Origin: Chrysoperla carnea
Taxonomy: Eukaryota > Arthropoda > Insecta > Neuroptera > Chrysopidae
Assembly: GCF_905475395.1 (NCBI RefSeq)
Contig: NC_058342.1
Coordinates: 16,340,640 to 16,404,639, forward strand
Length of the DNA stretch: 64,000 bases
Reading direction: 5' to 3'
Both the position numbers and the translations under genes were made by a program. How positions within the stretch are numbered: the stretch's first letter is position 1; each line of letters starts with the position of its first letter. Under the pieces are notes generated by a model. That model was not told where the DNA came from, did not search any database, and was given only the letters and a program-made list of their open reading frames with translations. Shown here in pieces: positions 14,575-46,414 of the stretch.

Positions 14575-15068
14575 CATACATCAGTGTGAAGTTTTGTGAT
14601 TGTGAATTTGTTGTGATTATAAATAAATAAAACTGTGATTTATGACACTTACTATGTTCTGTTTTTGCTTTTTAATCTGCTGTTTTAATATTTTATTTTA
14701 AAGTGTTTATTTTAAATGTGTAGTCCTACTTATTTATTTTATATTAGTTACTTTTATCAATTTTATTGTAAACTGTTTTTTTTTTTTTAATACTTTACTA
14801 CACTTGTTCGAGTATATCCTGTTAAATGTTCAAATTTTACATCTGTATCTTTTAAAGATTATTTAAATAAAAAGCTTTAATCTGTTCTTATCAACTTAAT
14901 ATCTGGTACGCCTCCCATTGCGAGACCAGTATATTAAACTATTATTTGGAACACGGTAGATTGTTAGGAGCTTGCTCCACTTCTACCGCGGATTGACTCA
15001 GTGTTGCAGTACAGCTGGGATTGGCCCTGTCAAATAAATCACAAAATAGAATTCTTCATAAAATAATC

Positions 15069-23117: not shown

Positions 23118-25109
23118 TTAAAGTTTTACTTGACGGATTGGACGCCGGCCAGAAATGCTTGATGATTCTGAAGGTGCCCGTCTTCTGTTTTGTAGAAGAA
23201 CAGTTTCTTGATCTGGTTCGTATATGATTTTGGTTTCGTATGGTTGAACTTGATTGTTCCTGTTTTCTCCGAATAGGCAGTTATAAAAGTTAAACGTATC
23301 TCCATTTTTCTTTTTGCATGGTAGTAAGCAGTTGATGGTTTTTGACAAAAGGGTTGCGAGGACTTTGAAGATTCCATATTTGTATGTGTAATAAAGAATA
23401 ACTATTGATGCCATAGCGCTTCCAATGTAACATAACCATTTATAAATTGTATTTTCGTATTTGATTATGAATGGTTTATTTAATTGTGTTTGCAGGTTTT
23501 CATCCATTTTCTTCAGTTGATGTTGTGTGTATTTGATTTCATTTAGATCCAGATTTCTTAATTTTATTGGTTTTAATTGTTCTGGACTAAGTTTTTCTTC
23601 TTTAAAAAGATATTTACAACAATCATCTTCTAAAATGTTTACTTGTGGAATTTGTAGGTACGTAGTTACATTTCGAATTGTTATTTCTGGTTGTAGAATA
23701 ATATTGTTTGTTATAAAGCGACAATCTCCAGTAATTTTTAGTAAACCCATTCCATTTAATGTTGATTCTTGGTCTGCTCCAGTATTGCAAAGTAGAGTTC
23801 CTTTTGTTAATTTGGAAAGGATAAACAGCCATTGATTTTTTGATACTTGTTGCCATATTTCAGGTTGGGCAATGATGGTGGTAGTTTTACATGATTTTGG
23901 TATAATTTGGTTTTCCAAATCGAACATTTCCAATTCACATATATCGGTTGAACGTCGTTCCATTGTGTCGATGTGCTTACAAATGTACAAGTCATTTAGA
24001 CGAATGCATTTGTCAAGCTGTTTAAGTAATGCGAATTGAGATTTACTTCTGCTAGATATTAAATATGGATAATCAATTGTGATATAGGAAATTTGACTTG
24101 AATTTTTATGTGGAGTTGGTAAAGGAAATACTTGAAATAGGTTAAATTCTGAGATTTGTGCTATTGGAATTTTAATTAATATTACTAATGTAGATTCTTT
24201 TATGAAAGCTTTAACATCCATAATTTGATAATAATATTCAATATTTTCTGGTTCTATTTTTATTGGTAATGATAATGAAGTGATTTGTTTTAATTCATTA
24301 TAAAGTGTGGTAGGATTAATTATATTATAATCTACAATTCCATGACGAATGAGCGTTAGAGTCATGCTATAGGATTGTAGCTGTCTAATATTTATATCGT
24401 TTATTTGTTTTATTAATAATAAATGATCTAATATTTCTATTTCTAGAGAGTTTTCGTTAATTGCTGCAGATGATTTATTTATAAATTTGTTGAAAGATTT
24501 AATATTCGCGTTTAACTCCTGTTCAGCGTCTTGTATTGTTTCTAAGGTTTTATTTAGTGTATTCATGGTGTCTGAAAGTATTTTTATTTGGTCTTTCATC
24601 ATTAAGTGGGTGGTTTTCCGATCATCGATAAGAGAATTAATAGAATTTGAGTAGAATTCAGAGTCGTCTGAATCGGGTGTACCTACTAGCCATTTCAGGA
24701 TTTTAGATCCTGCATTTATGAGACCTCGACGTTTTCTTAAAAGAGTTTTTGTTGTAGTCGGTTTGTCTAATTGTAAATTGTGGGATTGAACGGTATTAAT
24801 TAATGATTTAATTTCAGTTAATTGTTGCACTAATAATTTTTGTTGAAGTTTACAAGCTGCTGCGTTGGAGTGATTACTTGGTATCAGTGAACATAACGTA
24901 TAAGATTTATGGTAAAAGCGTGTTGCTGTGTTTAAGTTTTCATTGAAGGTAGTAGTATTTATAAAGTGAAGTAAAGTTAGATGTTGGTTACATATTTTTG
25001 CTTCTCCGAGGCGTTTGAAAAATAAACCAGGTGATTTATCAATTTGTTCCACCTGTAGTTCTGTTGTCGCCTGGCGAAGTAATAGCAGTACGAACAATCT
25101 GATCATCAT
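23118..25109 (-). CDS. env: Envelope glycoprotein (Env), errantivirus / baculovirus-F type
   Basis: 663 residues. A hydrophobic signal peptide (about 2-17) is followed by a short surface subunit. RKRR at 125-128 is a furin-type cleavage site. The sequence after it, GLINAGSKILKWLVGTPD, has the shape of the fusion-peptide region shared by gypsy-class Env and baculovirus F proteins. A membrane anchor lies at about 553-577 and a basic, ~85-residue tail follows. N-x-S/T sites are scattered through the ectodomain. Length and order are those of intact family members, with no internal stop. The ATGATG start sits right behind a splice acceptor, and its first 71 nt overlap the end of pol, so it is expected to be made from a spliced subgenomic mRNA. 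Inferred role: membrane fusion and cell-to-cell or germline entry. Confidence 0.93.
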   Translation of the reverse strand: MMIRLFVLLLLRQATTELQVEQIDKSPGLFFKRLGEAKICNQHLTLLHFINTTTFNENLNTATRFYHKSYTLCSLIPSNHSNAAACKLQQKLLVQQLTEIKSLINTVQSHNLQLDKPTTTKTLLRKRRGLINAGSKILKWLVGTPDSDDSEFYSNSINSLIDDRKTTHLMMKDQIKILSDTMNTLNKTLETIQDAEQELNANIKSFNKFINKSSAAINENSLEIEILDHLLLIKQINDINIRQLQSYSMTLTLIRHGIVDYNIINPTTLYNELKQITSLSLPIKIEPENIEYYYQIMDVKAFIKESTLVILIKIPIAQISEFNLFQVFPLPTPHKNSSQISYITIDYPYLISSRSKSQFALLKQLDKCIRLNDLYICKHIDTMERRSTDICELEMFDLENQIIPKSCKTTTIIAQPEIWQQVSKNQWLFILSKLTKGTLLCNTGADQESTLNGMGLLKITGDCRFITNNIILQPEITIRNVTTYLQIPQVNILEDDCCKYLFKEEKLSPEQLKPIKLRNLDLNEIKYTQHQLKKMDENLQTQLNKPFIIKYENTIYKWLCYIGSAMASIVILYYTYKYGIFKVLATLLSKTINCLLPCKKKNGDTFNFYNCLFGENRNNQVQPYETKIIYEPDQETVLLQNRRRAPSESSSISGRRPIRQVKL

Positions 25110-28100
25110 CTGAAATATAATGTTTCAGATTATTTTCATGGTACGTTTTGTTTGATTTTTTCATTTTTATAGTGACGGTGTGTGATTCAGGATGGACTGA
25201 AATGATTTTGAAAGGACCTCTGAATCGGTTTTTTAGTTTTCCTGGGGCAGCTTGGCCTTCCTTGATTAATACATCGTCTCCTACGTTAAATGTGCGTGGT
25301 TTGGTTTGTTTTTTGTCATATTGGGCTTTATTAACTTCTTTACTTTTGGTTAAATTTTCTCTTGCAACTGTCCGAATACGTTTTAATTTGTCCTGGACTT
25401 CTTTTGATAGGTTTTGGTACGTTTTTCTTGTTGTGTTTTTCTCGAATGAAGTGGGAATGTGTGGATCTATCCCGAATACCAATGTGTATGGGGTTTCGTT
25501 TGTGGAACGATTTTTATGACTGTTGTATGAGAATGTTGCTAGGTAGAGCATTTCATCCCAATTATCCATTTCGGCGTTAATGTATGCTCGAAGATAATTT
25601 TCTATATAAGAATGTGTCCTTTCTAAAGATCCATTGGTTTGTGGATGATATGGTGATGTCAATTTTTGTTTTATGTCGAATAATTTGTTTACTTCTTTTA
25701 TTAGTGCGGTGAAGACCGGATCTTGATCCGTGAGGATGGCCTTAGGAAATCCGAATGTACAAGCATATTTCAAAAAATAGATAGCTGTTGTTTCAGCTTT
25801 TCTATCTGACATTGGAAAAGCTTGCAGATGTTTCGTAAGGTGATCTTGTATGGTTAAGATGAATTTATTCCCATTTGATGTGACCGGTAGGGGACCTACA
25901 AAGTCCATTGAAATTTCATCGTTGAAGTTTTCCGCAGTGGTGGTGATAACCATGGGCGCTTTATTTAGATTAGAAGATTTTGCTTTTTGACATGTGGGAC
26001 ATTTCTTTATATAGTTTTCAACGTATGTCTTCATTCCCTTCCAAAAGTATTTTTCTCGAAGTTCACTATACGTTCTTGAGACGCCTGGATGTCCTCTAAG
26101 TGGGGAATCGTGATATTCTTGTAAAAGTCTCTTCTTTTCTTCGTCTGTACGGATAATGGTAGTGGTTGTTCCTTCCTCAGGTACAGTATTCTCGTTTGGT
26201 TCTTCATTATTTGGTTGTGTTTCATTTGGTGGTTCTACCTCGTCTGGTTCTATGTTGTCTGTGTCTATATCATCTGGTATTTCGATGATTTCGTTGTCAT
26301 TTTCTTTGGAAGTAGATGGAATTTGTTCGGGTTCTTCATTTGATATATTTAGTTCGTTTTGTAATATATTCTGTATTTCATCCTCAGTTAGAAGCGTACT
26401 GTAGTTTATATTTTCGACGTTTATTTTTTCGATATTATTGTTAAAATGATATAACAGTAGGTTATTTAGATATTTTGTTTGAATTGATTTATCTATAAAT
26501 GCTAAGTCGATGAAGGTGTTGAAGTCAGGTGATGTAAGTGCTACTTCGTCCACTACTTCATATAAAAGTTTTGGGTTTATTTTATAATTTTCGTGTTGTT
26601 TTAGAATTAGTAAAATTATATTTTGATTAGCATTTTCTTTTCTCAGAACTTGACCAAGATTTGCATTTTTAATTTCATTTAAGGTAAAATTGTTTAGAAT
26701 AAATGTTTTTAAATTTTCGTTAATATTTAAATTTTTTGCACATGGTATTATTAAATTTTTAATTGTTGCTATATCGCAGCCGGGGTTGAATCTTATTATT
26801 GGGTTTGATTTTTTGTTGAATTTTTGAAAATCTTCATAGGATTTTTCTTTGTTTATCATTGCAACAAATATTGGGCGACTTAAAGTGTCTGCAGTATAGT
26901 TTGTTTTTCCCGGTGTGTAATTTATCTTGTACTGGTAGTTCATAAGTTTTAGTCTCCAACGTACGAGTCTGCTAGTAGGGTCCTTAACCGAATTCAGCCA
27001 TACTAATGGGCGGTGATCCGTTTTGACCAAAAACTCGCGGCCATAGAGAAAATGATGGAAATTTTTAATAGTTTTTAAAATAGCAAGGCATTCCTTCTCT
27101 ATAGTAGAGTAATTTTGTTCGGCTTTGTTTAGTGTGTAAGAGTAGTATGCGATAGGTAAATCTACTCCGTCATACGATTGTGTTAGTACCCCACCTATAG
27201 CCAGATTTGAAGCATCTGTAGTGATTGAAAACATTTTATTATCATCGGGGTATTGTAGAATTGGTGCTGAAGTAATTTTTGATTTTAAAGTTTCAAAAGA
27301 ATTTTTACATTTTTCGTCAAATATGAATTTTTGATTTTTCTTCAATAGTTTGGTTAGAGGCTTGGCTATTTCACCGTAATTTTTTATAAATTTTCGATAG
27401 TATCCAGTGATACCTAGGAAACTTTGAATCTGTTTAATATTTTTTGGTTCGTTTAAATTGAGAATTTTTTCAATTTTTTCTTTTTGAGGTTTTATACCAG
27501 ATAAAGTTATTGTATGGCCTAAATACTTTAATTCTTGTTGAAGAAATTCGCATTTGTCCATGTTTATTTTTAGATTATTGTTTTTTAATATTTGTAAAAT
27601 TTCTTTTAAGTATGCGATGTGTTCGTCTAGACTTTTTCCAAGAATAATTAAGTCATCTAGATAACACATACATTTTTGTTGTAAAATTTGGTCATGAAAT
27701 ATTTCATTCATAAGGGTTTGGAAAGTCGCTGGAGCGTTTACCAAACCAAATGGCATTCGAAGGAATTCGAAATGACCGTGGCCAACGGTGAAGGCTGTCT
27801 TGGGAATATCCTCGGATTTGATCGGAATTTGGTGGAACCCACTCGCCAAATCAAGGGCCGAAAAGTACTTGTTTCCCCCTAAATTTGATAATATTTCATC
27901 AATTCGTGGAATTGGGTAATTATTTGGTATGGTTTTTTGGTTGAGCATTCTGTAGTCAATTACCATACGATATTTTTTTATGTTTGAAGCGTCTAGTTTT
28001 TTATCTACAATCCAAACAGGAGAATTGTATGGACTTTTACTTTTACGAATAATATTATTTTTAAGTAATTCGTCAATTTGTTTTTGTGCTTCTTCACGCA

Positions 28101-28776
28101 AGTGCTTGGGTAGAGGATAAATTTTATTTTTAATTGCACAGCTCTCATCAATCAATTTAATTTCATGTTCAATTTTATTTGTACACCCTGGAATATCGTT
28201 TTCTAATTTTACAATTTGGTTGTATTCAATAATTACTTTGGTTAACTTAGATTTTTCTTCTTCATTTAATGTGTCCGTACGTAATAGTTTTAAAATTTCA
28301 TCTTTCCTAGATGGTTCGATTTTTGTATTAAAAATTTTCGCGGGATCTAAAGAAATTGAGTTAGTTTTATAGTTAATTACAGCATTATGTTTCGTTAGAA
28401 AATCTGTACCTAAAATTCCGTCATATGGTACAGTGTCACTATCCACTAAATGAAAAAAATGATGAAATTTGTGACCATCTTTAATCATGTAGACTGATAC
28501 AAGTCCAAATGATGAAATTGTTCCATCAGTTATACCTTTAATTGATATTCTAATGTTACTGTTTATTTCCGTTTTATGATTGGGGTTTAAATTGTTAACT
28601 TTTAATAAACTAACACTAGCACCTGTGTCAATTAAAAAATTAAATTGATTGTTTCGAGAGTGTTCGGAATTAAATAAAAGTTTTTTATCATTTATTATTG
28701 CATTTGGAAGTTTAGTGAAGCCCACTCTGTTGACTTGCTCGTAGTTGGGGCTTCCGTTAACCCGAGCGATTTGTAG
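25039..28776 (-). CDS. pol: Pol polyprotein: protease, reverse transcriptase, RNase H, integrase
   Basis: Read as a -1 frameshift product of gag. The frame is open from about 28791, with no ATG near the overlap. Domains in order, numbered from 28725: aspartic protease with LIDTGAS (about 28-34); reverse transcriptase with LRMPFGLVNAPATFQ and the YLDD catalytic box (about 355); RNase H with TTDAS (about 505) and the YSTIEKECLAI segment; a ~250-residue linker with an acidic E/P/N-rich stretch; then integrase with an HHCC zinc finger (HDSPLRGHPG...CPTCQKAK, about 873-920) and catalytic D,D,E (MDFVGPLP, LTDQDPVF, NGSLERTHS). A basic C-terminus with RGPFKI resembles the GPY/F module. No disabling lesion is seen. 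It performs reverse transcription and integration of the element. Confidence 0.95.
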   Translation of the reverse strand, partial: LQIARVNGSPNYEQVNRVGFTKLPNAIINDKKLLFNSEHSRNNQFNFLIDTGASVSLLKVNNLNPNHKTEINSNIRISIKGITDGTISSFGLVSVYMIKDGHKFHHFFHLVDSDTVPYDGILGTDFLTKHNAVINYKTNSISLDPAKIFNTKIEPSRKDEILKLLRTDTLNEEEKSKLTKVIIEYNQIVKLENDIPGCTNKIEHEIKLIDESCAIKNKIYPLPKHLREEAQKQIDELLKNNIIRKSKSPYNSPVWIVDKKLDASNIKKYRMVIDYRMLNQKTIPNNYPIPRIDEILSNLGGNKYFSALDLASGFHQIPIKSEDIPKTAFTVGHGHFEFLRMPFGLVNAPATFQTLMNEIFHDQILQQKCMCYLDDLIILGKSLDEHIAYLKEILQILKNNNLKINMDKCEFLQQELKYLGHTITLSGIKPQKEKIEKILNLNEPKNIKQIQSFLGITGYYRKFIKNYGEIAKPLTKLLKKNQKFIFDEKCKNSFETLKSKITSAPILQYPDDNKMFSITTDASNLAIGGVLTQSYDGVDLPIAYYSYTLNKAEQNYSTIEKECLAILKTIKNFHHFLYGREFLVKTDHRPLVWLNSVKDPTSRLVRWRLKLMNYQYKINYTPGKTNYTADTLSRPIFVAMINKEKSYEDFQKFNKKSNPIIRFNPGCDIATIKNLIIPCAKNLNINENLKTFILNNFTLNEIKNANLGQVLRKENANQNIILLILKQHENYKINPKLLYEVVDEVALTSPDFNTFIDLAFIDKSIQTKYLNNLLLYHFNNNIEKINVENINYSTLLTEDEIQNILQNELNISNEEPEQIPSTSKENDNEIIEIPDDIDTDNIEPDEVEPPNETQPNNEEPNENTVPEEGTTTTIIRTDEEKKRLLQEYHDSPLRGHPGVSRTYSELREKYFWKGMKTYVENYIKKCPTCQKAKSSNLNKAPMVITTTAENFNDEISMDFVGPLPVTSNGNKFILTIQDHLTKHLQAFPMSDRKAETTAIYFLKYACTFGFPKAILTDQDPVFTALIKEVNKLFDIKQKLTSPYHPQTNGSLERTHSYIENYLRAYINAEMDNWDEMLYLATFSYNSHKNRSTNETPYTLVFGIDPHIPTSFEKNTTRKTYQNLSKEVQDKLKRIRTVARENLTKSKEVNKAQYDKKQTKPRTFNVGDDVLIKEGQAAPGKLKNRFRGPFKIISVHPESHTVTIKMKKSNKTYHENNLKHYISDDDQIVRTAITSPGDNRTTGGTN
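25110..25122 (-). promoter_or_regulatory. Splice acceptor for env mRNA
   Basis: On the minus strand ACATTATATTTCAG ends at 25110, immediately before the env ATGATG. This pyrimidine-biased CAG is a plausible 3' splice site that pairs with the donor at 29827/29826. Confidence 0.7.
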
Positions 28777-29756
28777 TTTAAATGATTTACATCATTATTG
28801 GGATTATTTGATTGCCTTGAAGTACTGGGGTTATTTGAGCCACTATTTGCGTGGGCTACTTTGGGATTTGAATTATTCAAATTTTCGTTAAAACGTTTTT
28901 TCCGGCATTCGTCAATAGTATGCCCTTTAAATTTACAATAAGTACATTGTTTAAAATTATAATTTCGATTATCTGAGCGTGATGCCTCTCCAGAATTAGA
29001 ATTATTAAATTGTGAACTATTATTTTTATTTCGACAGTCTTTAGTATTATGATTATTTTTTCTACAAATTTTACAATACTTTCGCGAATTACTTGAATGA
29101 ATATTATTTAAGCTTGTATTTCTAAGTTGGTTTTGCATGCTAATGAACGCTTCTTCTTCGCTTGCTATTGATAACGCTTCATTCATTGAGTTGCAATTTT
29201 TGTGACGTAGAATATTGGATATTTCCGGTTTACAATGGTGTGTAAACCTTCTAAGTGCCATATCTTCGATTAATGCTAATTTTCCAATTAACATGGATTT
29301 CGAAGTAGTTTTTTCTTTTACTTTTTGAATAATGCGAGAATTTAGACGTTCAATGCGAGAGTAAAATTCTTTTATTGATTCATTCGGTTTTTGTTTACAT
29401 GTTTCCAATTGTTCTTGTAAAAATGTTAAACTTTCCGTAATTTGAAAAATTTGTTCTAATTTTTGTTTTAAATTTGCAAAAGTTGTAATATTTGTAGCGT
29501 TTAGTTTATTTTTTACATCGGCAGATACTTTAGAAAATATTAATGCTGTTAAAGCTCTTTTTTGAGAATCTTGTGAAAGACTTAAAGCATTTTCGGCATT
29601 TTGTAAAAAATTTTGAAGTTCGGCTGGATTGCCATTATATGGTGTAATCATTTGTGCGAGAAATGATATTGGAATTTTTTCGCTATCGACAAATGAACCC
29701 TCATCTTCAGAGATTTCTGGTTCAGGAGAATTATTTCGTGATGGGTGAGAGGACAT
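28695..29756 (-). CDS. gag: Gag polyprotein with two CCHC zinc knuckles
   Basis: 353 residues starting ATG at 29756. The N-terminal two thirds is a helical capsid-like region (PITFLAQMITPY-like start, LFSKV..., EQLETCKQKPNESIKEFYSRIERL) typical of Ty3/Gypsy Gag. Two nucleocapsid knuckles follow, each C-x2-C-x4-H-x4-C: CKICRKNNHNTKDC and CTYCKFKGHTIDEC (about residues 224-270). A polar N/S-rich tail ends at 28695. It packages element RNA into particles. The end overlaps pol by ~97 nt and contains the frameshift heptamer. Gypsy-group errantiviruses of Drosophila usually lack CCHC knuckles, so their presence is notable. Confidence 0.92.
   Translation of the reverse strand: MSSHPSRNNSPEPEISEDEGSFVDSEKIPISFLAQMITPYNGNPAELQNFLQNAENALSLSQDSQKRALTALIFSKVSADVKNKLNATNITTFANLKQKLEQIFQITESLTFLQEQLETCKQKPNESIKEFYSRIERLNSRIIQKVKEKTTSKSMLIGKLALIEDMALRRFTHHCKPEISNILRHKNCNSMNEALSIASEEEAFISMQNQLRNTSLNNIHSSNSRKYCKICRKNNHNTKDCRNKNNSSQFNNSNSGEASRSDNRNYNFKQCTYCKFKGHTIDECRKKRFNENLNNSNPKVAHANSGSNNPSTSRQSNNPNNDVNHLNYKSLGLTEAPTTSKSTEWASLNFQMQ
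28717..28782 (-). promoter_or_regulatory. -1 ribosomal frameshift signal: slippery heptamer plus H-type pseudoknot
   Basis: On the minus strand TTTAAAC (28782-28776) lies in the gag frame as T TTA AAC, the canonical X XXY YYZ form. After an 8-nt spacer, GCTCG (28767-28763) can pair with CGAGC (28741-28737), with extra GTT/AAC pairs inside. The loop segment GAAGCCC (28754-28748) can pair with GGGCTTC (28723-28717) downstream, giving a 7-bp second stem. Slippage by -1 enters the pol frame exactly. Spacing and topology match known retroviral frameshift stimulators. Folding was done by eye. Confidence 0.87.
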
Positions 29757-29820
29757 TGTGAATTATGTATGGGATAAAAATTATTTAAAAATTTAACAGC
29801 AGAAGCAAAATAAACAATTC

Positions 29821-31849: not shown

Positions 31850-32065
31850 ACTTCCCGTTGGGGCGGTAAATACCCCTTGGTCTCCAGGCGAAAGAGAGTT
31901 TAGTTGCGGTGGGTGGAAGTGGGTGGTTGGGGGTGACAAAAATGTGAAAAATATATGTCTGTCATTTTTTTACTCTTGCAAACTTTCAGAAATTTTCAGA
32001 AGAAATTTCTGAAATGATCTAGAAAGTTCCATAATGAGTATAACGGTCAAAATCGATTCGAAATT

Positions 32066-32093
32066 TTCTAGAAAATTCTAGAAAGTTCTAGAA
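32066..32093. promoter_or_regulatory. Heat-shock-element-like array
   Basis: Six perfectly alternating pentamers, TTC-TA-GAA-AA-TTC-TA-GAA-AG-TTC-TA-GAA, the pattern bound by trimeric heat shock factor. Weaker TTCTGAAATGATCTAGAA motifs lie at 32008-32028. A TATA/initiator pair lies ~350 bp downstream. Confidence 0.6.
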
Positions 32094-32437
32094 ATGATCT
32101 AGAAAGTGTGTTTAAACCGATAACTAATCATGATCAACTTTAATCTGACCGCCGAGAGCTTTTAGCGCACATCTCGGCCACCAGTAGAACCATAAAGCCT
32201 GAAACGGACACGAACTTCCGAAATTTAAATCTCTTGATTTCAACCAAGTTTAGTGTTTTTTCAAGTGTTCTATTGTTAAAAGTAAGTTTTTTATATTACA
32301 ATATTCTATCTGGATATAAATTTTATTAAATTAAACGATTTTCTAACAAGAAAAAGAACAATAGAAGCTAATAGAATGGAATAAAACCCTTCTCTCGAAC
32401 ATTATTTTAACCAGAAGCCTCTAGACCAACCTCAGGG

Positions 32438-32472
32438 TATAAAAGGAGGCTCTCTCGGCGACTTAAGTCAGT
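32438..32472 (+). promoter_or_regulatory. TATA plus initiator core promoter candidate
   Basis: TATAAAAGG (32438-32446) is followed by TCAGT (32468-32472), placing the initiator A 32 bp from the first T of the TATA box. That is standard arthropod spacing. The first ATG downstream opens only a very short frame, so no gene is identified. It may be the promoter of a decayed heat-shock-type gene or of a mobile element. Confidence 0.5.
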
Positions 32473-32548
32473 ATGTTTAATGGCCGAATAAGTCAATTTC
32501 TAAGATGGAAATCTATAATATTTAATTAAAGAGAATTGAAAAAAATTC

Positions 32549-32619
32549 ACTCGAACTAGGACTCGAACTCGGACTTCTTGGATTTATGTCAAACGCCCTA
32601 CCAATTAGGCTATTCGAGT
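32549..32619 (-). pseudogene. tRNA-like sequence (degenerate)
   Basis: On the minus strand ACTCGAA and TTCGAGT form a perfect 7-bp acceptor-like stem. GCCTAATTGGTAGGGC is a good D arm, and TTTGACATAAATCCAAG an anticodon-arm-like stem with one mismatch. The T arm pairs poorly, and the loop base before the presumed anticodon is A instead of T. Probably a tRNA pseudogene or SINE head. Confidence 0.45.
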
Positions 32620-36726: not shown

Positions 36727-37245
36727 TTATTTATTATTAAATTTCCATAATTTTTTTCCGTCATCAAAAATCGTCAAAAATTTACCATGAGAAAAACAGT
36801 CACTTCGTAAGTCTACACCAGCTAATTTTAAACTCTGACCTTGTGCTTTATTGATAGTCATCGCAAAGCAACATTTTACTGGAAACTGCAAACGCTTAAA
36901 TTCAGAATGATAGTCCGATGGAATCAAAGGGATTCTCGGAATGAATACACTTTCTCCCTCATACTTTCCTGTAAAAATTGTTGCGTCGATAACGTTTCTT
37001 TGCATGGTTTTTACTCGTAATCTAGTGCCATTACACAATTTTGGGGGATTTAAATTACGCAACAAGATTATTGGTTCACTAATTTTTAGATGAAAAATAT
37101 GAGGTGGTATTCCTGGTGGGTTGAGTGTGTGTAGAAATTCGACAGGATAGTGAACAGTATCTTCTACCTCGATAACTGTATCTACAGACTTATAAACTAC
37201 AGAAAATCTTTGTGATAGGCATTCTGTAAAATCCGTTCTTAGTGG
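36727..37245 (-). pseudogene. Helitron helicase (RepHel) C-terminal fragment
   Basis: On the minus strand one frame, open from about 37245, reads VEFLHTLNPPGIPPHIFHLK, EPIILLRNLNPPKLCNGTRL, NVIDATIFTGKYEGESVFIP and FPVKCCFAMTINKAQGQSL, ending near 36727. This is the C-terminal part of the Pif1-like helicase of Helitron RepHel proteins, including the SF1 motif around MTINKAQGQSL. Instead of the usual FYVACSR continuation the frame turns into FLTIFDDGKKLWKFNNK and stops, so it is broken just before the last helicase motif. No Rep domain is in the window. It shows that autonomous Helitrons existed in this genome and could have mobilised the short copies. Confidence 0.85.
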
Positions 37246-37439
37246 ACGTCTATGTCACAACAGAAGTAAGTATGCGAAATTTAAAGTTAACCGGACCGAT
37301 AGTTTCGGAGATTTCGTGATGAGTCAATCAGTGGTAAATCGCTTATATATATACAGATTTGCTAATCATTTTCACAAAAATAAATATAGGAAGCTAATCA
37401 CGAAAGAAAACTGACAATCACGTCTTTTTCTTCTGTAAT

Positions 37440-45656: not shown

Positions 45657-46414
45657 TCTATATATATAAAAAGAGAGTGTTTGTTTGTATGTCCCCGATT
45701 TTCCCTAAAACTAACCATTGACCTTCGGTAGGGGATTATGTCATTGGGTAGCCCTTAGGCTCCCATTGTGAATAAGGGAGTTTGGTGGGGGTGCATTGTG
45801 AATAAGGGAGTTTGGTGGGGGTGGAATTAAAAATGATCTAGGAATTCATAGAAAATAGATTAAAATAGTTCTAATAATTTTCAATAGATGGCGCCACTGT
45901 CAATAGTACAATTTTCACTAGATGGCGCTACTGGCGCAAATGTCTTTCGATTTTTCTCGAAAATTCTGGAATGTTCCATGGATTTCTATCGAATTTTCTC
46001 GAACATTCTGGAATGTTCTATGGATTTCTATCGAATTTTCTAGAACTTTCTCGAATATTCTCGAATGTTGTATGGATTTTTATTGAATTTTATCAAACTT
46101 TCTCGAACAATCTGGAATGTTCCATGGGTTTCTGTCGAATTTTCTAGAATTTTCTCGAACATTCTGGAATGTTCTATGGATTTCTATCGAATTTTCTAGA
46201 ACTTTCTCGAATATTCTGGAATGTTCCATGGGTTTCTATCGATCTTTCCCTTACTTTTCCGTACACACAGAGAGTGTAGACATAATATTGGGATCGGCCA
46301 AAAAAATCTTACTGTTCCGTACACACAGAGAGAATTAAAAAAAAAGTCTTTCATGTAACAATTTTGATATTTAAATGTGCAAAAACAACCCAGCGAAGCG
46401 GGTTTAACAGCTAG
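45657..46414 (+). mobile_element. Non-autonomous Helitron carrying heat-shock-element arrays
   Basis: Starts A|TCTATATATATAAAAAGAGAG and ends with hairpin AACCC-agcgaagc-GGGTT, then TTAACAGCTAG|T. TC start, CTAG end, terminal hairpin and A/T flanks (45656, 46415) are the Helitron hallmarks. 758 bp with no coding capacity. It contains a 22-bp direct duplication (GAATAAGGGAGTTTGGTGGG, about 45771-45820), and the HSE block at 45954-46226. Confidence 0.82.
45954..46226. promoter_or_regulatory. Five perfect multi-pentamer heat shock elements
   Basis: Strictly alternating TTC/GAA triplets with 2-nt gaps occur at 45954-45976 (5 units), 45991-46018 (6), 46033-46065 (7), 46137-46174 (8) and 46189-46226 (8). 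A degenerate array lies at about 46085-46123. They belong to a ~50-bp imperfect tandem repeat whose spacers read CCATGGATTTCTATC or similar. Three pentamers suffice for heat shock factor binding in known promoters, so these are strong predicted sites. Confidence 0.8.

Follow-up and report, generated by a model that had tools for sequence, protein, structure and literature searches.

The interior of a 758-bp non-autonomous Helitron is filled with strict heat-shock element (HSE) arrays, and the element belongs to a family of roughly 260 copies that its low divergence indicates is young. By architecture, the level at which the likeness is known here from sequence alone, this family is an insect case of the HSE-bearing Helitrons of the Caenorhabditis type, in a second animal phylum. 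We consider it probable (roughly 0.7) that heat shock factor (HSF) would drive Helitron transcription in heat, the non-autonomous family having amplified the HSF sites and scattering them.

The element occurs once in the window (the whole stretch of DNA analysed, 64,000 nt), and, as the initial annotation had stated, its termini are intact: A precedes the initial TC, the 3' hairpin is present and the terminal CTAG is followed by T (Table 1). The hairpin comprises seven pairs with one bulged base (-4.1 kcal/mol, z -2.4), the exact 3' end of the family reads CCCAGCGAAGCGGGTTTAACAGCTAG, and no open frames of at least 120 residues were found inside the element. We take the TC start, the CTAG end of CTRR form, the hairpin and the lack of a long frame to be features of non-autonomous Helitrons, and the 758-bp element is one. 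Exact copies of its 30-bp duplication number 0 to 2 per element among 39 family members. The only exact matches of TAGATGGCGC in the window are the two sites listed in Table 1; allowing one mismatch there are six, a number reached in none of 100 shuffles, and AGATGGCGC was found in 38 of 39 elements. By their likeness, these motifs are putative CTCF or YY1/Pho sites. A longer CTCF-type consensus has three matches in the window, which is at chance level (equalled in 17 of 100 shuffles).

Rescanning 45954..46226 returned the count originally given, five strict alternating TTC/GAA arrays with 34 units in all (5, 6, 7, 8 and 8 units, in a 5-bp register), and the tandem repeat put earlier at about 50 bp has a period of 52 bp, each monomer consisting of 38 bp of HSE and a 14-bp linker. 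An HSE requires at least three alternating nGAAn/nTTCn units, and the arrays hold 5–8 strict units each. Among 1000 dinucleotide-preserving shuffles of the array region, 957 were without any array of at least three units and the maximum was four units (2 of 1000). Beyond the array region, the rest of the window contains two 3-unit arrays and a single 6-unit array.

Table 1. Positions of the features of the non-autonomous Helitron (window coordinates) and of the motifs read in its autonomous relative.
Feature	Position	Strand	Basis or remark
Non-autonomous Helitron, 758 bp, between A (45656) and T (46415)	45657..46414	+	termini read
5' terminus TCTATATATATAAAAAGAGAGTGTTTG	45657..45683	+	first 13 bases common to autonomous Helitron
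30-bp direct duplication, two exact copies	45764..45823	+	repeat search
TAGATGGCGC motif 1	45885..45894	+	exact match
TAGATGGCGC motif 2	45919..45928	+	exact match
HSE array, 5 strict units	45954..45976	+	array scan
HSE array, 6 strict units	45991..46018	+	array scan
HSE array, 7 strict units	46033..46065	+	array scan
HSE array, degraded, 8 units, one base wrong in three	46085..46122	+	52-bp register
HSE array, 8 strict units	46137..46174	+	array scan
HSE array, 8 strict units	46189..46226	+	array scan
25-bp direct repeat, 3' of arrays	46250..46332 (46250-46274 and 46308-46332)	+	repeat search
3' hairpin AACCC(A)GC-GAA-GC-GGGTT	46387..46404	+	folding
3' terminal CTAG, then T	46411..46414	+	exact 27-bp end recurs genome-wide
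GGCGCCATCT motifs, autonomous Helitron	L076 1270-1300 and 1342-1372	opposite strand	reading

The 6-unit array (32066-32093) is strict and lies in an older dispersed repeat (window 31860-32460) that also carries TATAAAAGG near 32440 and has 39 other copies at 80–87% identity (40 scored of 154 candidates); judged by its sequence, it is perhaps an older HSE-driven element. Outside the HSEs its likeness to the Helitron is marginal (score reached in 1 of 300 shuffles), and the stretches following the arrays show no likeness between the two (85 of 300 shuffles). Unusual conservation of the HSE in this repeat was considered and rejected: a 27-mer is kept with at most one mismatch in 15 of 39 copies against 1.8 expected, halving the divergence lifts the expectation to about 12 by our own arithmetic, and we make no claim because the 27-mer was picked as intact in the window copy. 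The window further contains an LTR-retroelement-like stretch with three long gag-, pol- and env-like frames, judged by eye (23118-29762, minus strand), a U2 snRNA match (14845-15034, 91 bits) and a tRNA match (32548-32619, minus strand).

Copies of the family were sought in the genome (559 Mb, 337 contigs). That the host is an insect, as first proposed, follows from 70 genome matches to PF02949, the odorant-receptor family, which is not known outside insects. The array region as query gave at least 77 matches (best 40 of 312 candidates scored), and 39 further copies were fetched in a sample picked by likeness to the window copy. All but one of these (L056, the one copy without an aligned 5' start) align end to end with the same TC...CTAG ends, and the 38 full-length copies and the window copy each contain 4–9 arrays that are four or more units long, totalling 30 to 63 units per copy. 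The flanks are A before and T after the element in 34 of the 39 fetched copies by script; in the other five, trimmed by two bases, the printed flanks still have A before TC and T after, and the flank pairs of all 39 are distinct. These flanks fit the Helitron habit of inserting between A and T with no duplication of the target. The exact 27-bp 3' end has 244 matches genome-wide (117+127; control 0+0).

Because this first sample had been chosen by likeness, we added a second, positional sample from contig C1. Within C1:0-13.6 Mb, an HSE match is listed at most 1 kb from each of the 28 exact 3' ends, and L072, at first seemingly array-less, has two arrays. The listed 7-unit matches on C1:0-9.66 Mb sit at 17 loci, nine of which were fetched; both element ends align and arrays are present in all nine copies, which carry 2 to 6 arrays of at least three units, three of them having no exact 3' end match. 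The initial annotation had called for a genome search and had held that its reading would fall if other copies of the family lacked the arrays. They carry them, in 38 of 38 full-length copies and near all 28 exact 3' ends of the C1 stretch, so the objection it had anticipated does not arise. Divergence from the majority sequence has a median of 1.1% (0.3–2.5%) in the 39 likeness-chosen elements, by which measure the non-autonomous family is young.

The prokaryote, virus and plasmid collections (viral_contigs, genome_contigs, phages, plasmids) returned nothing attributable to the 758-bp element; its 3'-end pattern has two matches in genome_contigs (L010, L011). Seven-unit HSE-like repeats occur in nine IMG/VR contigs, the repeat letters alone being compared, and the IMG/VR contigs L003, L004 and L009 (55–62% GC) bear tandem GAAnnTTC repeats of at least seven units.

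A search of the genome with Helitron_like_N gave 64 matches, and one autonomous copy was read whole (C1:90082866-90088183; L076+L077). It begins with TCTATATATATAA after A and ends with CCCGGGCGAAGCCGGGTTTTTAAGCTAG before T, and its single open frame of 1467 codons encodes Helitron_like_N and PIF1 helicase domains. A strict 4-unit HSE, GAAATTTCTCGAATATTC, precedes this Rep-helicase frame by about 450 bp and is accompanied by a fifth unit with one mismatch; two copies of GGCGCCATCTGTTATCGAATATTTGAACTTC stand upstream of the HSE and a TATA-like TATATAAG about 20 bp downstream of it (L076 1438-1445). The same block of HSE and TATATAAG is present in all eight copies of this 5.3-kb family that were read there, a ninth stretch (L081) starting downstream of the block and being uninformative. 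The 794-bp 5' region recurs in 16 near-full copies at 99–100% identity, a likeness from which we infer very recent movement of the autonomous family; the exact 3' end is 5.3–5.5 kb off in 12 of the 16, three have a shorter span (1.8–2.3 kb) and one is without a matching end. In the single copy read (L088) of a diverged subfamily whose leader is longer, the TATATAAG box is kept together with three strict units of the HSE. In another Rep lineage (C3:1677173), no strict HSE of at least three units was found in the 3.1 kb of 5'-side sequence read, a stretch within which the 5' end was not located. The initial annotation had suggested that the element might use heat stress to be transcribed; the proposal now has behind it an HSE and a TATA-like box 5' of a related Rep-helicase frame, and the induction itself is what we infer.

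The autonomous and non-autonomous families share their first 13 bases, and their 3' ends are similar but different; HSEs are far more numerous in the non-autonomous family. Exact runs common to both measure 15 (HSE), 13 (AGTGGCGCCATCT, opposite strand) and 13 (5' end), lengths that fall in the tail of the shuffles; since shared function could yield the HSE run, these runs are only suggestive of direct kinship. Among the Rep-helicase copies, none bearing the exact 3' end of the non-autonomous family was identified. As the 3' ends differ, the family with the HSE promoter is to be regarded as a relative and not as the proven driver, and a different copy may in fact mobilise the non-autonomous family.

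Several further observations concern Helitrons and HSF in this genome. In both families the AGATGGCGC motifs immediately precede the HSEs, in the autonomous Helitron on the opposite strand (Table 1). At C1:137066401-137077021, two Helitrons of the autonomous family lie head to tail with virtually no spacer, and C3:3767553-3809834 holds seven Helitron_like_N matches in one orientation, of which the first six are spaced at about 5.8 kb, possibly a tandem Helitron array from rolling-circle replication. Helitron_like_N also occurs in open frames of 2462 codons at C7:377020 and C7:190501, which perhaps, as a guess, represent a Helentron-like lineage. The window itself contains a Helitron helicase relic (Pif1 2B domain; 36727-37254, minus strand) that is 57% identical to the autonomous helicase over 140 residues. 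A fragment of the HSF DNA-binding domain at C6:31975412-31975525 (profile 23-60, 42 bits) was the sole match among five candidates.

In a tally of 260 monomers from the 39 elements, rare substitutions per site per monomer amount to 0.0058 for TTC/GAA cores (36 substitutions), 0.0049 for spacers (18) and 0.0058 for linkers (21), and common variants between monomers affect 9 of 24 core, 6 of 14 spacer and 5 of 14 linker sites. The core rate is thus close to that of spacers and linkers, so that the inserted sites show no selection, and by these comparisons a sign of better core conservation is absent both after insertion and between 52-bp monomers. This equality, together with the variable number of arrays (4–9 of at least four units; 2–6 of at least three), would be expected from a plain satellite expansion of a central tandem repeat, such as many Helitrons have, in which a 10-bp sub-period GAAnnTTCnn mimics HSEs and HSF is irrelevant to the success of the element, and the accessible text of PMC11431837 provides a precedent of a Helitron-derived satellite in Drosophila. 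Such an expansion is nonetheless unlikely in our judgement, as an HSE occupies the promoter position of the related autonomous Helitron, and the four 10-bp sub-units of the monomer have identical cores and varying spacers: 0 of 6 core columns and 3 of 4 spacer columns are variable, and all differences (at least five) fall in spacer columns (p ~0.01 from a 4-in-10 share). The constancy of the sub-unit cores is weak evidence because the monomer was selected for strict cores.

HSF also has non-stress roles, and one paper reportedly treats HSF5 in meiosis. These roles would accommodate arrays that bind HSF for germline or developmental activity, the element being active in the germline without heat. 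We regard this as improbable, since the autonomous promoter, with its HSE near a TATA-like box, presumably resembles an inducible hsp promoter.

Genome-wide, the 7-unit HSE pattern has 914+914 matches (control 0+0) and the 5-unit pattern 2239+2245, i.e., 4,484 (reversed control 3+0), counts that include overlapping matches. The 39 elements average 7.00 matches to the 7-unit and 17.15 to the 5-unit pattern, and both patterns give 261 copies, an estimate that assumes all matches to lie inside the family and the likeness-chosen elements to be typical; the family thus has roughly 260 copies. The family accounts for 99 of the first 100 5-unit matches listed, which span nine loci in C1:0-6.71 Mb; these 99 sit at eight of the loci, and the single match outside the family is C1:3233727. 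Copy density in the sampled C1 end is high (28 exact 3' ends per 13.6 Mb vs 244 per 559 Mb), and the share of HSEs held by the family may therefore be lower elsewhere. On C1, 59 of 89 exact 3' ends lie less than 20 Mb from a contig end, where 25.4 are expected (p 3e-13). Contig C4 (77.5 Mb) holds none of the 40 most similar copies, with 5 to 6 expected by length; autonomous-family copies do occur there. In 20 loci of 10 kb around copies, 16 frames of at least 110 residues were found, and among the 10 flank frames scanned the sole match was a hAT transposase fragment. Still less probable than germline activity is a role of the arrays as an HSF sink, in which thousands of strong sites would titrate HSF away, so that the heat response of the host is damped or delayed and neighbouring genes are little affected: the 4,484 overlapping matches, with 99 of 100 in the family within the sampled C1 stretch, and the more repressive marks at heat-shock genes near Helitrons in the accessible text of Garrigues et al. 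(PMC6927752) are consistent with it, but the accumulation of C1 copies near contig ends argues against it.

The nematode precedent invoked in the initial annotation is on record. According to the accessible text of Garrigues et al. 2019 (PMC6927752), the Caenorhabditis HSE-Helitrons comprise Helitron1_CE, HelitronY1/Y1A/Y4_CE, Helitron2_CE and Helitron7_CB; in C. elegans HSF-1 binds HSEs inside Helitrons, where almost two-thirds of the HSEs of that species lie, and heat raises the expression of a Rep-helicase gene that has Helitron HSEs upstream, both in C. elegans and in C. briggsae. For the UCSC genomes with annotated Helitrons, the same text reports HSE-Helitron enrichment for three Caenorhabditis species only (PMC6927752), and in the available portion of PMC12062965 thermotolerance is changed by deleting such Helitrons upstream of fbxa-215. 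Compared with what is described there (PMC6927752, accessible text), the insect elements are alike in the dense overlapping tandem HSEs of non-autonomous copies, in the placement of HSEs 5' of Rep-helicase in autonomous ones and in the large share of HSEs inside Helitrons. They differ in their insect host, in uninterrupted 8-pentamer arrays with a 52-bp period and in the AGATGGCGC beside the arrays. In the literature searched, mostly without subscription papers, no HSE-bearing Helitron outside Caenorhabditis was found.

Two other systems share single traits with this family. ONSEN/COPIA78 are heat-activated retrotransposons of Brassicaceae (PMC6927752, accessible text) and, as far as that text goes, likewise mobile elements with heat-response sites able to make neighbours heat-responsive; unlike Helitrons, ONSEN/COPIA78 is an LTR retrotransposon of plants, and unrelated. 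In the Drosophila montium group, the tandem repeats at the centre of a Helitron have given rise to a satellite; that Helitron resembles our elements in its variable tandem repeat mid-element, whereas its repeats are not presented as transcription-factor sites in the accessible part of the report (PMC11431837).

If HSF does drive transcription of these Helitrons, HSF trimers would in heat bind the arrays of non-autonomous copies cooperatively, and the related autonomous Helitron, with its promoter of heat-shock type, would supply Rep-helicase in the same heat conditions. Non-autonomous copies opened by HSF would then be copied, and multiplication of the element would thereby be coupled to heat stress. 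Every new copy would deposit a potential heat-responsive enhancer; the 758-bp copies may, to judge from their arrays, act as heat enhancers for their neighbours, and effects on neighbouring genes are to be expected from this scheme. More tentatively, at somewhat short of even odds, we propose that HSF control arose separately in insect and nematode Helitrons (or was spread by horizontal transfer), that transposition is triggered by heat via the HSE-TATA promoter, and that the small satellite elements have multiplied the HSF sites to the point where one mobile family, holding almost all strong HSEs of the genome, rewires the heat response of this insect.

The functional reading, in terms of HSF and heat, is plausible and has its precedent in the Caenorhabditis Helitrons. 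Young copies in a second animal phylum raise the question of whether Helitrons recruit HSF repeatedly, and this insect would allow transposition triggered by heat, and the dispersal of heat enhancers, to be measured directly. Since the copies are so alike, some of the roughly 260 insertions are probably still polymorphic, and together they would constitute natural enhancer insertions.
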